Part shown: one piece after another, positions 16,187-22,470 of the stretch
How positions within the stretch are numbered: position 1 is the first letter of the stretch
Layout: each line of letters begins with the position of its first letter
Origin: Bacteroidales bacterium
GTDB taxonomy: Bacteria > Bacteroidota > Bacteroidia > Bacteroidales > GCA-2748055
Direction of reading: 5' to 3'
Length of the DNA: 64,000 bases
Assembly: GCA_029931975.1 (NCBI GenBank)
Contig: JAOZQY010000005.1
Span: forward strand, 1 to 64,000
Made by a program: the position numbers and the translations under genes
Notes under the pieces: generated by a model
Databases searched by the model: none
What the model was told of the DNA's origin: nothing
What the model saw: the letters and a program-made list of their open reading frames with translations, nothing else

Positions 16187-17275
16187 TTATTCGTAGGTGG
16201 TCCCCCGGTGTGATGATCCATCCAGCCTTTGCACAAAAGATTTCAGGATGAACACACGATTCGTTGCCTGGTGATATACATGCAGATTACTGCCATGCAA
16301 TTCATAGATGGTCTCTTTGCTGATATCCACCTTATTTACCCAGAGGTAAAATGTACCAGAAGGGGTAGCCTTCCAGGTAAATGGAACCTTGATACCGCTT
16401 TTTCTGTAAGCATCGCGGGGTATCCCTTCATTCTCCCTGGAAACAGCCTGTTGAACTGTCGGCGTGTGTGTCTGCTGCACCGGCAGTGCAGCAATGGGTG
16501 TATAACCCACACCTGAGCCATTCCGGAAATAGAAATCTCCTACCAGGGAACTGGACTCCCATGGGGTTTGCTGACCATTGCTGCTGGCCAGCACATCGGC
16601 CCTTACGCCTTTAAAAACTTCTTCCACCTTTACTCCTGGTTGTTGCATATGCTCCAGCAGAGCACGGGTATAGAGACCATAATCCTGATCTCCATCCGAT
16701 GCCACGGAACCCGGTGAGGTGGAGTAGGCAATCATGGTACCGGTGGGAGCCACCATGGTAGTGAGGCCCTGTTTGGTATCCCTGAATGAACGTGAAAAGG
16801 GATTGTTCCGACAGGCATCCAGGATCACTATATTTACATTACTTTTTGCACTTTCCATATAGGCCAGGATGAAACCCATATCAAGAGCCTCGTATTCTAT
16901 TTCCTGCTCAATATGCATCACTGCCTGGGTTGGAAGCAAATAGTTATAGCCATTGACCTGCATGCCATGGCCGGAGTAGTAAAAAAGTGCTGTTCCTTCT
17001 GATTTCAGTTTCATTCCAAATTCTCGCACAGCCTGCTTCATCGCATTCTGGTTCTTCACATTCTCCCTCAGGATCACCTCAAAACCGGAGGATTCCAGGA
17101 CCTTTGCCATGGCACGGGCATCATTTACTGTGTTTTTCAGGGGCCCATTCAGGTAGTCTGCATTCCCTATCACCAGTGCCACCCTGTTCTCTGTGGATTG
17201 TCCTTTCAGGGCATCTGCACCCACCAGTGCAAAAAAAACAAGAAGTACTCCGCATCGAATCATGAAAGTTTTCAT
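16187..17275 (-). CDS. Secreted caspase-like (C14) cysteine peptidase
   Basis: 362 residues with a signal peptide (about 1-25). A p20-like caspase fold follows: VALVIGNADYLNGPLKNTVND at the first strand and helix, the catalytic His103 in YYSGHGM, and the catalytic Cys155 in ILDACRNNPFSRSF, followed by APTGTMIAYSTSPGSVASDG and YTRALLEHM. This HG...DACRNNPF pattern is typical of bacterial metacaspase-like proteins (orthocaspases), which cleave after basic residues. The last 110 residues, after GDFYFRNG, form an extra segment of unknown fold. Target and role are unknown. The gene is divergent from a small beta-barrel-like protein, with start codons about 30 nt apart. Confidence 0.85.
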   Translation of the reverse strand: MKTFMIRCGVLLVFFALVGADALKGQSTENRVALVIGNADYLNGPLKNTVNDARAMAKVLESSGFEVILRENVKNQNAMKQAVREFGMKLKSEGTALFYYSGHGMQVNGYNYLLPTQAVMHIEQEIEYEALDMGFILAYMESAKSNVNIVILDACRNNPFSRSFRDTKQGLTTMVAPTGTMIAYSTSPGSVASDGDQDYGLYTRALLEHMQQPGVKVEEVFKGVRADVLASSNGQQTPWESSSLVGDFYFRNGSGVGYTPIAALPVQQTHTPTVQQAVSRENEGIPRDAYRKSGIKVPFTWKATPSGTFYLWVNKVDISKETIYELHGSNLHVYHQATNRVFILKSFVQRLDGSSHRGTTYE

Positions 17276-17983: not shown

Positions 17984-19378
17984 TCAATCTTCAGTGATCA
18001 GCTTTCGGATGCGTTCAATCTGTTTCTGTTTATTTACTTCGCGAAGACTCCTGGCAGTTTTCGTGAAATAAGAATGCCCGGATATAAATTTCAATTGCAG
18101 TTTGTTCCATTCATTCAGGGTTCCGATCTTATTCTGTTCATGCAGTTCCTTAAACAAGGTATTGGAAACCGGGATCATATCGCTTCTGCCCAGGTAGTCA
18201 AGGTCGGCATCGCAGATAATCTCCTGGTAAATATCCTTGGGTTGTGGAGGTAACTTGGTGGCCATGATAATGTCACAGATCTTTTCGATCTGCTCCTCCG
18301 AATATCCGTAATCCGGAAGAATTTTTTTTACCATCTCCGTTCCGTGATACTCATGCTCATCGTAATCAATGGTATGTCCGGCATCGTGAAACAGGGCTGC
18401 TGTTTTCAGCATCAGGATTCCTTCATCATCAAGTCCTTCGGCCCAACCGATCAGTTCCACTTCTGTAACCACATCCACCGTATGTTTCACATTGTGATAG
18501 TAAAGATAGTCGGGTAGTTCATTTTCCAGCCTGTCGAGAATCAGTTCCTGGATATCGGTAAACTGGATCAACTTAAATTTCGTATTAAACAAAGCATTGG
18601 GCATGACACCTTTGTTCCTCATTGAGAACTCAGGTCTGATCCCGTTCACCACAAACATTTCCAGGTCACCCTTATATTTCACGGGCATCTTACCATAATA
18701 CTCGCATATAAAAAACTCTTTGACCAGTTCATAGGTCATCACCGAGATCAGTATCTTTCCACTTTCTCCCCCTCCCTGCATACGGTGAGCTATATTGACC
18801 GTATCGCCCTTTATATCATAGCTAATCTTCCTCTTTCCCGATACAGTCGCTGTAACTGGTCCGGTGTGAATACCCAGCCTCAGGTTCCAATAGCGTTTGC
18901 CGTCAATTCTTCTGAGCTGGTTCAGAAACAAATTCATCTCCAGAGCTGCCATCACCACATCGATGGGGTTGGTTATATTCTTTTCCGGAATTCCACCTGC
19001 TGCCATATAAGTATCTCCGATGGTTTTAATCTTATGGATCTTGTACTTCTTAAGGATGCGGTCAAATTCAATCAAAACTTCATCCAGCTGGTCCATAGCC
19101 ACCGAAGCTTTCTCTTGGACAGTCAGATGCTTAAACCCACTTATGTAGGCAAAAAGCACCGTAGCCATCGTATACTTCTTCACTCGCTCCCCGGTCTCCT
19201 GATATCGTTCCTCCTTCATACCAAGACGGGCATCCTTCAGGCGTAGCTTCAGGTTTTCATTCTGTTCCGTGATCTGAGCAAGTGCTCTTTGCAACTTCTC
19301 ATTCTTATCATACAGGTCCTGGTTCTGCTTGACCAATTTCTGAATCCGCTTTAACAGTTCATCCTGCTTTTGTCCCAT
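17984..19378 (-). CDS. Class III adenylate/guanylate cyclase-like domain fused to HD domain
   Basis: 464 residues from the ATG at 19378. A further ATG at 19417 is rejected because it would overlap the start of the divergent nuclease gene. Order: a coiled coil (about 5-50, EL.KRI..LV.QN...NEKL), a class III cyclase domain (about 70-245), and an HD metal-dependent phosphohydrolase domain (about 265-455). The cyclase keeps KTIGDTY with metal Asp122, the IKGDTVNIAHRM transition-state Asn and Arg, but the first metal-binding Asp is Tyr78 (VLFAYISGF instead of VLFADI.GF). The HD domain is complete: HNVKHT, His331-Asp332 in FHDAGH, HEYHG and CDADLDYLGR. I infer a sensor or phosphodiesterase with a degenerate cyclase domain. 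Partner signal unknown. Confidence 0.82.
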   Translation of the reverse strand: MGQKQDELLKRIQKLVKQNQDLYDKNEKLQRALAQITEQNENLKLRLKDARLGMKEERYQETGERVKKYTMATVLFAYISGFKHLTVQEKASVAMDQLDEVLIEFDRILKKYKIHKIKTIGDTYMAAGGIPEKNITNPIDVVMAALEMNLFLNQLRRIDGKRYWNLRLGIHTGPVTATVSGKRKISYDIKGDTVNIAHRMQGGGESGKILISVMTYELVKEFFICEYYGKMPVKYKGDLEMFVVNGIRPEFSMRNKGVMPNALFNTKFKLIQFTDIQELILDRLENELPDYLYYHNVKHTVDVVTEVELIGWAEGLDDEGILMLKTAALFHDAGHTIDYDEHEYHGTEMVKKILPDYGYSEEQIEKICDIIMATKLPPQPKDIYQEIICDADLDYLGRSDMIPVSNTLFKELHEQNKIGTLNEWNKLQLKFISGHSYFTKTARSLREVNKQKQIERIRKLITED

Positions 19379-19387
19379 TATGTTTAA

Positions 19388-19395
19388 TATCTTTG
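19388..19395 (+). promoter_or_regulatory. Candidate -7 promoter element for the EEP nuclease gene
   Basis: TATCTTTG matches the Bacteroidota -7 consensus TAnnTTTG exactly and lies 20 nt before the ATG at 19416. A TTTTG at 19368-19372 is upstream but spaced only 15 nt from it, shorter than the usual 19-21, so the -33 half is weak. Confidence 0.45.
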
Positions 19396-19415
19396 TAGTA
19401 TAATATTTATCGCCC

Positions 19416-20444
19416 ATGAAAAACAGAGCTATTCTGACTGCACTTCTTTTTATCGCATTACAGTCTATCTACTCTCAGAAGAACGTAAAATCCTTCCTCG
19501 TGGTTTCATATAATGTAGAAAACCTTTTCGACACTATCAATTCTCCACAATTTGAAGATGACGAATATACCCCTTCCGGGACCTTAGCATGGACCTACGA
19601 ACGTTATGAAAAGAAACTGAAGGACCTGGCCCGCGTGGTGCTCTCATTGCCCGGCAAGGAGCTCCCGGCAGTGATCGGACTTGCGGAAGTCGAGAACAGG
19701 ATGGTACTGGAAGATCTGTGCGCTGTGCGTGGTATCAGGAAGGGGGAATATGAGATTGTTCATGAGGATGGTCAGGATCCAAGGGGGATTGATTGTGCCC
19801 TGCTTTACAGGCCTGATCTTTTCAAATACAAATCCCATGAATATATACCCATTGTCGATCCTGTGAACACCGATTACCTTTACAGGGGAATTCTGCATGT
19901 TCGGGGAAAGGCGCCCGATGGTTCCATGCTACACATCTTTGTAAATCACTGGAAATCGAGGAGTGGAGGAGTCCGGGAGACTGAAAGGCAAAGAATGTTT
20001 TCAGCCATTACACTGCGAAAGGAGCTGGATAAATTGCTGGCCAGGGAATCTGATTTCAAGGTGATTATCATGGGAGACTTCAACGACGAACCTACCAACA
20101 GGAGTATTTCAAGCGGTCTGTCTGCAGGGAACAAACGTCGCAATATCGAAATGGGGGATCACTACAACCTCTTCTATGATCTTCACAATAGCGCCAGAGA
20201 AGGAACTTACAACTATAAAGGAACCTGGAATATGCTGGATCAGATGATTGTCTCCTATAACCTGTTAAACCAGGAGAGGGGACTGAGCACCGGATTTGAC
20301 GGCGGACATATTTTGAAGGAGGAATGGATGCTCTATGTGAGTGAAAAATACGGAGAGAGCCTTCCCTCTTCCACCTATGGCGGGCCTGAATACTTCGGGG
20401 GACCCAGCGACCACCTTCCTATCTACGTAGAATTCACCTGGTAA
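19416..20444 (+). CDS. Endonuclease/exonuclease/phosphatase family protein, secreted
   Basis: 342 residues with a signal peptide (about 1-20, ending QSIYSQ). The DNase I/EEP fold motifs are present in order: VVSYNVENLFDT (about 28-39), VIGLAEVENR with the metal-binding Glu, FVNHWKSRSGG, IIMGDFNDEPTNRS with the Asp-Asn pair, and the final GGPSDHLPIYVEF with the catalytic Asp-His. It is therefore a metal-dependent phosphoesterase acting outside the cytoplasm. Substrates in this family include DNA, RNA, phosphoinositides and sphingomyelin, and cannot be decided here. The uvrB start codon follows after a single nucleotide, so they are probably co-transcribed. Confidence 0.86.
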   Translation: MKNRAILTALLFIALQSIYSQKNVKSFLVVSYNVENLFDTINSPQFEDDEYTPSGTLAWTYERYEKKLKDLARVVLSLPGKELPAVIGLAEVENRMVLEDLCAVRGIRKGEYEIVHEDGQDPRGIDCALLYRPDLFKYKSHEYIPIVDPVNTDYLYRGILHVRGKAPDGSMLHIFVNHWKSRSGGVRETERQRMFSAITLRKELDKLLARESDFKVIIMGDFNDEPTNRSISSGLSAGNKRRNIEMGDHYNLFYDLHNSAREGTYNYKGTWNMLDQMIVSYNLLNQERGLSTGFDGGHILKEEWMLYVSEKYGESLPSSTYGGPEYFGGPSDHLPIYVEFTW

Positions 20445-20445
20445 G

Positions 20446-22470
20446 ATGGAGTACAGGCTCACCTCGGACTATAAACCCACAGGGGACCAGCCTGAAGCAA
20501 TCAAACAGCTGGTGGATGGATTCAATGCCGGTGAGCAGTTTCAGACCCTGCTTGGGGTGACCGGATCTGGAAAGACCTTTACGGTAGCCAATGTGATCCG
20601 GGAACTTGACAGACCTGTGCTGGTATTGAGTCACAATAAAACCCTGGCAGCGCAGCTCTACAGTGAATTTAAGCAGTTCTTTCCGGAAAACGCTGTAGAA
20701 TATTTTGTGAGCTATTATGATTACTACCAGCCTGAGGCTTATCTCCCTGTCACAGATACCTATATTGAGAAGGATCTCTCCATCAATGACGAAATAGAGA
20801 AACTTAGACTGAGTACAACCTCTTCCCTGCTTTCGGGACGAAGAGACGTGATTGTGGTTTCTTCGGTATCCTGCCTTTACGGCATCGGAAATCCTGATGA
20901 TTTTCACAGTTCTACCATCAAGGTGAGAAAAAGCGAGATGCTTAGCCGGAATGTCTTTCTCCGAAGACTGGTGGATGGACTCTACTCCCGAAACGAGGTG
21001 GATTTCAAACCGGGAACCTTCAGGGTGCGTGGCGATACGGTGGATATCCGCCTGGCTTATACGGACCTGGCATACCGGGTGGAGTTCTGGGGAGATGAGA
21101 TCGATTCCATTAAATCGATCCACCCGGTGGGCGGACACACCATTGAGGAACACAGCGAGGTAATCATCTTTCCTGCCAATATATTCATCACCTCCAAAGC
21201 ACGTACAAAGGCTGCCATTGAAGAGATCCAGGACGACATGATGAAGCAGGTGGATTTCTTTAAAGAGGAACAGAAACTAATTGAGGCACAGCGGATCGAG
21301 GAGCGGGTCACATACGACCTGGAGATGATCAGGGAACTGGGCTTCTGTCCGGGCATCGAAAACTACTCCAGGTATTTTGATGGCCGTTCGCCCGGAACCA
21401 GACCCTTCTGCCTCCTGGATTACTTCCCCGACGATTTTATTACAGTGATCGATGAAAGTCATGTAACTCTGCCCCAGGTACATGCTATGTATGGAGGCGA
21501 TTTCTCCAGGAAAAGAAACCTGGTGGAGTACGGCTTCCGGCTTCCTGCAGCGGTGGATAACAGGCCGCTGAAATTCAATGAGTTTGAGAATCTTATTGGT
21601 CAAACTCTCTTTGTGAGTGCTACTCCTGCTGATTATGAGTTGGAGCGATGCGGTGGGGTCATTGTGGAGCAGGTAATTCGTCCAACCGGACTGGTGGACC
21701 CGGTCATTGAGATCATGCCAAGTGTAAACCAGATCGACCAGCTGATCGGGGAGATCAACAAGCGCGTTGATAAAAATGAACGGATCCTGGTTACCACACT
21801 CACCAAGCGGATGGCCGAGGAGCTTACAAACTACCTGGTAAAACTGAATATCCGGACCCGCTACATCCATTCGGATGTGATTACCATGGATCGGGTGGAG
21901 ATCCTCGAGGGCCTCCGAAAAGGCACCTTTGATGTGCTGGTGGGCATCAACCTGCTGAGAGAAGGACTGGATTTACCGGAGGTCTCCCTGGTTGCCATCC
22001 TGGATGCAGATAAGGAGGGCTTCCTGAGATCGGAACGTTCCCTGACCCAGACTGCCGGCCGTGCTGCAAGGCACCTGAATGGCAAGGTTATTATGTTTGC
22101 CGACAAAATTACCGGATCCATGCAGCGAACCCTGGACGAAACCAAACGCCGAAGAACAAAACAACTGGCATATAACGAGCAACATCAGATTATACCCACC
22201 CAGATTTTTAAAACAACCCACAGCCTCTTTGACAAGAGCCTGGATCAGCTAAGCCTGGAGAGCGCCTATGCCGGACAGGCCAAAAGTGATATAGCAGCCG
22301 ACCCGATAGTCAAATATATGGGCAAGGAGGAACTGGAAAAAGCCATAGATAAGGCGAAAAAGCAGATGGAAAAAGCAGCCAGGGAGCTGGACTTCATCGA
22401 AGCTGCCCGCCACCGGGACGAGATGTATGCCTTCCAGGAGCTGCTGAACAAGCAAAAGGAGGCTGGTTAA
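20446..22470 (+). CDS. uvrB: Excinuclease ABC subunit B
   Basis: 674 residues, the usual length for UvrB, the damage-verifying helicase of nucleotide excision repair. Seen: Walker A in LLGVTGSGKTFTVANV (about 36-50), the beta-hairpin region YFVSYYDYYQPEAYLP that inserts into the DNA, DEXX box around VIDESH, helicase motifs V and VI (VGINLLREGLDLPEVS, QTAGRAARHLNG), and the C-terminal UVR domain (KQMEKAARELDFIEAARHRDEM) that contacts UvrC and UvrA. It acts in the cytoplasm with UvrA and UvrC, neither of which is in this window. The ATG starts one base after the stop of the nuclease gene. A stem-loop terminator follows. Confidence 0.98.
   Translation: MEYRLTSDYKPTGDQPEAIKQLVDGFNAGEQFQTLLGVTGSGKTFTVANVIRELDRPVLVLSHNKTLAAQLYSEFKQFFPENAVEYFVSYYDYYQPEAYLPVTDTYIEKDLSINDEIEKLRLSTTSSLLSGRRDVIVVSSVSCLYGIGNPDDFHSSTIKVRKSEMLSRNVFLRRLVDGLYSRNEVDFKPGTFRVRGDTVDIRLAYTDLAYRVEFWGDEIDSIKSIHPVGGHTIEEHSEVIIFPANIFITSKARTKAAIEEIQDDMMKQVDFFKEEQKLIEAQRIEERVTYDLEMIRELGFCPGIENYSRYFDGRSPGTRPFCLLDYFPDDFITVIDESHVTLPQVHAMYGGDFSRKRNLVEYGFRLPAAVDNRPLKFNEFENLIGQTLFVSATPADYELERCGGVIVEQVIRPTGLVDPVIEIMPSVNQIDQLIGEINKRVDKNERILVTTLTKRMAEELTNYLVKLNIRTRYIHSDVITMDRVEILEGLRKGTFDVLVGINLLREGLDLPEVSLVAILDADKEGFLRSERSLTQTAGRAARHLNGKVIMFADKITGSMQRTLDETKRRRTKQLAYNEQHQIIPTQIFKTTHSLFDKSLDQLSLESAYAGQAKSDIAADPIVKYMGKEELEKAIDKAKKQMEKAARELDFIEAARHRDEMYAFQELLNKQKEAG

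Follow-up and report, generated by a model that had tools for sequence, protein, structure and literature searches.

A tyrosine-bearing class III cyclase-HD protein of a Bacteroidales bacterium and a longer paralogue with the mirror-image loss

In the bacterial GGDEF-EAL phosphodiesterases Caulobacter CC3396, RbdA, RmcA, and Shewanella PdeB, a degenerate cyclase domain of a related fold, without catalysis and with its nucleotide-binding residues kept, is joined to a hydrolase that is intact and acts on the cognate messenger, and GTP binding to such inactive GGDEF domains controls the EAL phosphodiesterases (PMC9061725). Within the class III fold, the C2 half of mammalian adenylyl cyclases keeps the Lys/Asp and Asn/Arg residues and has Ser in place of the first metal Asp; it has lost the second metal Asp as well and acts in a C1/C2 heterodimer. 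In basal land plants, a single polypeptide named CAPE (combined AC with PDE) carries both a class III cyclase and a cyclic nucleotide phosphodiesterase (PMC5159850). Mycobacterial cyclase-like DUF2652 proteins (e.g., Rv2561) are class III-like with a single metal Asp (PMC4886424). Pycsar systems link pyrimidine cyclases with effectors of the pore or TIR kind (PMC11224242). In Bacteroidota, cyclic mononucleotide signalling has received little study; a census of 2005 found no adenylate cyclases in the four Bacteroidota genomes then available (PMC1183210).

Here, we analysed a cyclase-HD gene in a stretch of 64,000 nucleotides from a Bacteroidales genome (the window). Its features are collected in Table 1, and its product is called the short protein. 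An open reading frame of 477 aa (17984-19417, minus strand) begins at an in-frame upstream ATG at 19417, but its Met14 (19378) is the more likely start codon; residue numbers below follow the resulting 464-aa protein unless stated otherwise. Pfam assigns the two parts to Guanylate_cyc (E = 2.8e-40) and HD (E = 2.7e-7). Membership of the class III cyclase fold family is supported by both profile and fold, with Foldseek matches to class III cyclase structures at E values down to 5.9e-18, and the HD part scores 31.3 bits against a cut-off of 22 for the HD superfamily (PF01966), with the H...HD...D ligands invariant in 66 sequences.

Table 1. Positions in the window of the short cyclase-HD gene, its functional residues, and its divergent neighbours
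Feature	Position	Strand	Basis or remark
Short cyclase-HD coding sequence	17984..19378	-	464 aa; full-length homology to loci of the GTDB scan
Long N-terminal helix, residues 2-52	19223..19375	-	AlphaFold2 model, pLDDT about 72-88 over most
Class III cyclase domain (PF00211), residues 67-245	18644..19180	-	Pfam and Foldseek
Tyr78 codon (TAC), first metal-Asp position	19145..19147	-	464-aa numbering
Lys118, purine-selecting Lys (KTIGD motif)	19025..19027	-	Alignment and tree
Asp122, second metal Asp, family-invariant	19013..19015	-	0 changes on tree
Asp188, adenine-selecting Asp	18815..18817	-	Alignment and tree
Asn195, transition-state Asn	18794..18796	-	Alignment and tree
Arg199, transition-state Arg, invariant	18782..18784	-	Alignment and tree
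C-terminal HD phosphohydrolase domain, residues 251-464 (Pfam HD 298-392)	17987..18628	-	Profile and fold
His295 of YHNVKH; by analogy, place of the class I PDE general-acid His	18494..18496	-	
His299, HD metal ligand	18482..18484	-	
His331-Asp332, HD doublet	18383..18388	-	
His335 (HDxxH)	18374..18376	-	H in 57/66 family sequences, otherwise Q or L
Asp392 (ICDAD), last HD metal Asp	18203..18205	-	
Endonuclease/exonuclease/phosphatase family gene, divergent neighbour of the short gene	19416..20444	+	
uvrB, part of the conserved derived neighbourhood of the short gene	20446..22470	+	

An earlier note on this sequence had read a Tyr in place of the first metal Asp of a cyclase site that otherwise keeps its second Asp, Lys, and Asn/Arg pair, joined to an HD domain complete with His331-Asp332. 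Our analysis agrees on each of these points. Of the two metal-binding Asp residues of a competent class III cyclase, only the second is present (Tyr78, Asp122), while the purine-selecting pair (Lys118, Asp188) and the transition-state pair (Asn195, Arg199) are both in place, and the HD domain also has His295, His299, His335, and Asp392. The architecture and the residue pattern are analogous to those of the degenerate GGDEF-EAL proteins, but the short protein belongs to the Guanylate_cyc and HD families, and for it the inactivity of the cyclase domain, nucleotide binding, and control are putative. It differs from mammalian C2 in its invariant Asp122 and its attached HD domain, and from CAPE, which has both activities and an N-terminal class I phosphodiesterase, in having an N-terminal cyclase domain that lacks a metal ligand and a C-terminal HD domain. 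The DUF2652 proteins are single-domain proteins without HD, and no mirror-image paralogue has been described for them. A Pycsar locus would have PycC beside PycTM or PycTIR; no PycTM was found in the short protein or in the three neighbours scanned. The open-access literature searched contained no description of a class III pseudocyclase controlling an HD domain, which is not proof of novelty.

Relatives of the short protein were collected by a search of 100 related genomes and by a scan of GTDB genomes (47 loci), a sample based on metagenome-assembled genomes and spanning about 40 to 88% identity. Within the window's clade, 17 relatives can be read at the position of the first metal Asp (D1), and every one of them has Tyr there, as does one distant lineage (L033). 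The alignment of homologues that the earlier note had proposed thus shows Tyr78 to be conserved, and Asp, which in close homologues would have spoken for a sequencing error, is first met in a different genus of the same family (G018, 64% identity). The sister genera (L022-L025) have Asn, as does the L054/L055/L057/L068/L027 group; the remaining relatives have Glu, His, Ser, or Asp, and some have Asn. Sequencing error and recent pseudogene formation are ruled out by the presence of Tyr in every readable clade member and by a low dN/dS.

On a tree of 66 sequences of the short family (about 470 aa), built without the trait columns, D1 changed at least 15 times among the states D, Y, N, E, H, and S. 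On the same tree, the second metal Asp and the catalytic Arg did not change at all, nor did the HD positions His295, His299, His331, Asp332, and Asp392; the other cyclase sites changed 2 (Asn), 7 (Lys), and 10 (adenine-selecting Asp) times. The D1 replacements N, Y, E, and H lie a single base from Asp codons, and S occurs once. Because Ala, Gly, and Val, which are equally near to Asp codons, occur in none of the 66 sequences, the site is not simply free. Asp is still present in about 38% of the short family (25-26 of 66-68 sequences), so its loss is tolerated rather than required. The Tyr clade differs from the Asp consensus in only three cyclase columns (F82Y, D91Y, and Y255F in the 477-aa numbering).

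The genome of the window encodes five Guanylate_cyc proteins, of which the closest to the short protein is a protein of 1086 aa on another contig (C24) with Guanylate_cyc and a sub-threshold Y_Y_Y match. This long paralogue has no Pfam HD match, yet its HD region can be aligned, and the result is the mirror image of the short protein: the cyclase site reads D-K-D-D-N-R and the HD site HYLFLR. The HD residues are destroyed in 22 of 22 genomes of the window's family in which the long protein could be read, while D-K-D-D-N-R is found in the long paralogue of nearly all compared genomes (G062 has E for the adenine-selecting Asp). What is new here is a long paralogue that combines intact cyclase residues with an HD site destroyed in the window's family. 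In none of the genomes compared has the short protein lost its HD site or the long protein either of the cyclase metal Asps; hence, each genome has at least one intact copy of the site for each activity. The two proteins look like a split maker/breaker pair that has degenerated reciprocally. In distant genomes (L103-L106), the long protein is intact at both sites, which suggests that the ancestral cyclase-HD protein was probably bifunctional. A strict coupling of D1 loss to loss of the long HD site is ruled out, since in G018, G064, and G069 the long HD is dead and the short protein still carries Asp.

The two genes also share a locus of origin. The ancestral order in relatives is recO-short-porZ-rdgB-long, with both genes seen in L059, L062, L066, and L081. 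In Asp-bearing relatives and in the Glu-bearing pair L053/L056, recO and porZ flank the short gene, and the long gene adjoins rdgB in further relatives too (and porZ, where the locus reaches that far). This linkage shows that the short and long genes come from one locus. In the window's own genome, contig C24 has the order long-rdgB-porZ-recO with no room for the short gene, which lies at a derived site, divergent from the endonuclease/exonuclease gene and uvrB. The move beside uvrB is not supported as a cause of D1 loss: G018, whose short gene has moved to the uvrB site, retains Asp, which shows that the loss was not forced by relocation, and L053/L056, with the gene still at the ancestral site, carry Glu. 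In the window's genome, the genes around the long paralogue lie at 5495-13418 of L181 (G000:C24:54000-67602), and porZ encodes a component of type IX secretion; a link of cyclic nucleotide signalling to type IX secretion is possible.

Rates of evolution were compared by the NG86 method in 16 genomes with both paralogues. Because dS is saturated for most pairs, the argument is carried by the comparisons of dN. In the short protein, the median dN/dS is 0.061 for the cyclase domain (38 unsaturated pairs) and 0.050 for the HD domain, while in the long paralogue it is 0.035 and 0.136, respectively. The shift is thus crossed, with a dN(cyclase)/dN(HD) of 1.15 in the short protein versus 0.24 in the long one, and the short value exceeds the long value in all 120 pairs, which are non-independent. 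Protein distances agree. The cyclase/HD ratio in the long family is 0.80 where HD is live and 0.27 where it is dead, and in the short family it is 1.04-1.42 in the Tyr/Asn clades and 1.30-1.74 in the Asp clades, i.e., no higher after the loss of D1, which therefore did not loosen the cyclase domain. The short cyclase domain is under strong purifying selection; the part that is decaying is the long HD.

What the HD domain hydrolyses has to be judged from its relatives and its context. By sequence profile it is best matched to 2pq7 and YedJ, and by profile and fold its nearest neighbours in the HD superfamily are uncharacterised HD hydrolases and YpgQ. The modelled fold matches many HD hydrolases, with YpgQ of Bacillus subtilis and further hydrolases at the top (TM about 0.6-0.7), but these scores are modest and do not decide the substrate; genomic context tells more. 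The stretch YHNVKHTVDV...HDxxH resembles phosphodiesterase motifs, and in the YHNxxH...HDxxH region PDE9A and PDE5 are matched by profile and fold, weakly and with low significance. Assignment to the class I phosphodiesterases (PF00233) was rejected, as PDEase_I scores 14.8 bits against a gathering score of 24.8 and the PDB sequence match is sub-threshold as well. The nearest folds being those of YpgQ and other hydrolases rather than of phosphodiesterases, and the nearest profiles those of 2pq7 and YedJ, the domain might be an NTP/dNTP pyrophosphohydrolase or another phosphohydrolase that is regulated or localised by the cyclase domain. We consider this unlikely, however, because members of the family adjoin class III cyclases or are fused to cyclases or to PycTM, and because a mirror-image loss in the paralogue suggests that both proteins serve the same pathway.

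In a phylum-wide sample gathered with the family profile, 18 relatives were short stand-alone HD proteins, and for four of them a class III cyclase gene lies no more than about 1.5 kb away. The cyclase match is strong in L132 and L154, where the two genes share a strand at distances of 36 and 211 bases, and weak in L137 and L139. In two further loci, chosen since both parts matched (L179 and L180), the cyclase and HD genes are 3 bases apart or overlapping. The HD genes of L132, L154, L179, and L180 encode stand-alone proteins of about 200 aa, and the cyclases in L132 and L154 are TPR-cyclases. All four HD relatives of about 400 aa that were tested (L151, L152, L156, and L159, from other Bacteroidota and likewise found with the family profile) carry the Pycsar effector domain PycTM (E = 1.8e-28 to 5.2e-35), and an HD hydrolase on such an effector might have a role in switching it off. 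No description of HD-PycTM fusions was found in the open-access literature searched, which does not prove novelty. Together with the fusion to a cyclase in the short protein, these neighbours and fusions point, short of proof, to cyclic mononucleotides as the HD substrate. The maker/breaker pair described here also suggests what a widespread HD family, one that occurs in fusions with PycTM effector domains, is likely to do. The Lys/Asp pair of the cyclase domain suggests adenine, by a purine-selection rule restated in PMC4886424. The window's genome encodes 11 cNMP_binding proteins; a crude regular expression for the phosphate-binding cassette of a cAMP receptor, applied to the genome's own proteins, gave nothing usable.

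The strongest evidence beyond the single sequence is the paralogue with the mirror-image loss, the shared ancestral locus, and the links of the HD family to cyclases and PycTM. On this evidence, we see about an even chance that the short protein is a dedicated cyclic-nucleotide phosphodiesterase, the breaker half of the pair, with a cyclase domain that binds a nucleotide without cyclising it. It would be a soluble and probably dimeric HD phosphohydrolase, its substrate most likely a cyclic mononucleotide, with cAMP as the best guess. The cyclase domains are predicted to dimerise via the class III fold and the helix of residues 2-52, in the monomer model a likely coiled coil or dimerisation segment. 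A purine nucleotide (ATP or a related one) and a metal would be bound through Asp122 and the Lys/Asp/Asn/Arg residues of the partner. With only one metal Asp left of two, the domain has presumably lost cyclization, so that the nucleotide would stay uncyclised, and the bound state would be passed to the HD domain and alter its activity, much as GTP bound to inactive GGDEF domains acts on EAL phosphodiesterases (PMC9061725). The maker half would be the long paralogue, whose HD is dead in the window's family, both halves deriving from two linked cyclase-HD genes. Only tentatively do we propose the fuller scenario, in which a cyclic-nucleotide pathway arose by reciprocal decay of two linked bifunctional genes and the decayed cyclase came to act on the HD phosphodiesterase as an allosteric switch that depends on ATP, a class III/HD equivalent of the control exerted in degenerate GGDEF-EAL proteins.

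The earlier note had suggested that the cyclase domain has become a nucleotide sensor controlling the HD domain. In favour of this are a conserved and recurrent substitution, the retention of the second metal Asp, Asn, and Arg, a constrained cyclase domain (median dN/dS 0.06), and an intact HD domain, the combination to be expected where a cyclase part has a function that relates to nucleotides but not to catalysis, next to an HD enzyme that works. A sensor is, however, one of several possible non-catalytic roles, the others being a dimer scaffold and half of a heterodimer. Universal ATP sensing is weakened by four members without D1 (L093, L097, L102, and L108) that have lost Lys and/or the adenine-selecting Asp.

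In the heterodimer, the cyclase domain would still take part in catalysis in a C1/C2-like manner, with the long protein giving both metal Asps and the short protein giving Lys, Asp, Asn, and Arg, so that HD breakdown is brought to the maker. The long metal site is intact in all genomes compared, the genes share an ancestral locus, the Lys, adenine-selecting Asp, Asn, and Arg are conserved in the Tyr clade, and in the PDB the best sequence matches are AC8 and AC5, mammalian C1/C2 enzymes with Ser at D1 in their second half. Mammalian C2 does without both Asps, with Ser at the second, though, and a purely C2-like role would leave the second one dispensable, which the absence of any change at Asp122 among 66 sequences argues against; the loss of Lys or the adenine-selecting Asp in some members without D1 likewise does not fit, and we regard the heterodimer as quite unlikely.

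The cyclase domain could instead be a dimerisation scaffold without nucleotide binding, in which D1 drifted once the long protein had made cyclization dispensable. The repeated independent changes at D1, some with loss of Lys too, and a mean cyclase dN about twice that of the long paralogue would suit such a scaffold, which is nevertheless improbable: what speaks most strongly against it is that Asp122 and Arg199 are invariant, as a mere scaffold needs neither residue, and replacements restricted to N/Y/E/H/S and a dN/dS of about 0.06 are also out of keeping with it. That the cyclase is active despite Tyr78, by way of one metal or another carboxylate ligand, is hardly credible, for although the purine and transition-state residues are kept and the Glu at D1 in some relatives could bind metal, the metal-binding Asps are described as indispensable for nucleotide cyclases (PMC4886424) and the comparison with the Asp consensus showed no acidic residue specific to the Tyr clade.

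As a putative phosphodiesterase with a nucleotide-binding cyclase domain, the short protein forms with its long paralogue a testable model for the balancing of cyclic mononucleotide signalling in Bacteroidota by a maker/breaker pair with mirror-image losses, as well as for the reuse of a class III cyclase domain without catalysis. A few members of the family and its surroundings deserve separate mention. In L093, L097, L102, and L108, the purine-selecting Lys is replaced by N, S, R, and N, respectively, and two of the four lack the adenine-selecting Asp too, while the equivalents of Asp122 and Arg199 are kept in all four; these proteins are possibly sensors of another ligand. In L121 (G055:C10:127700-129700), which has Ser at D1, the cyclase and HD parts lie in two frames, an apparent frameshift or split. 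A gene for a caspase-domain (Peptidase_C14) protein lies near the short gene in the window (16187-17275, minus strand), and this neighbour is kept in some close relatives (L037 and L048).
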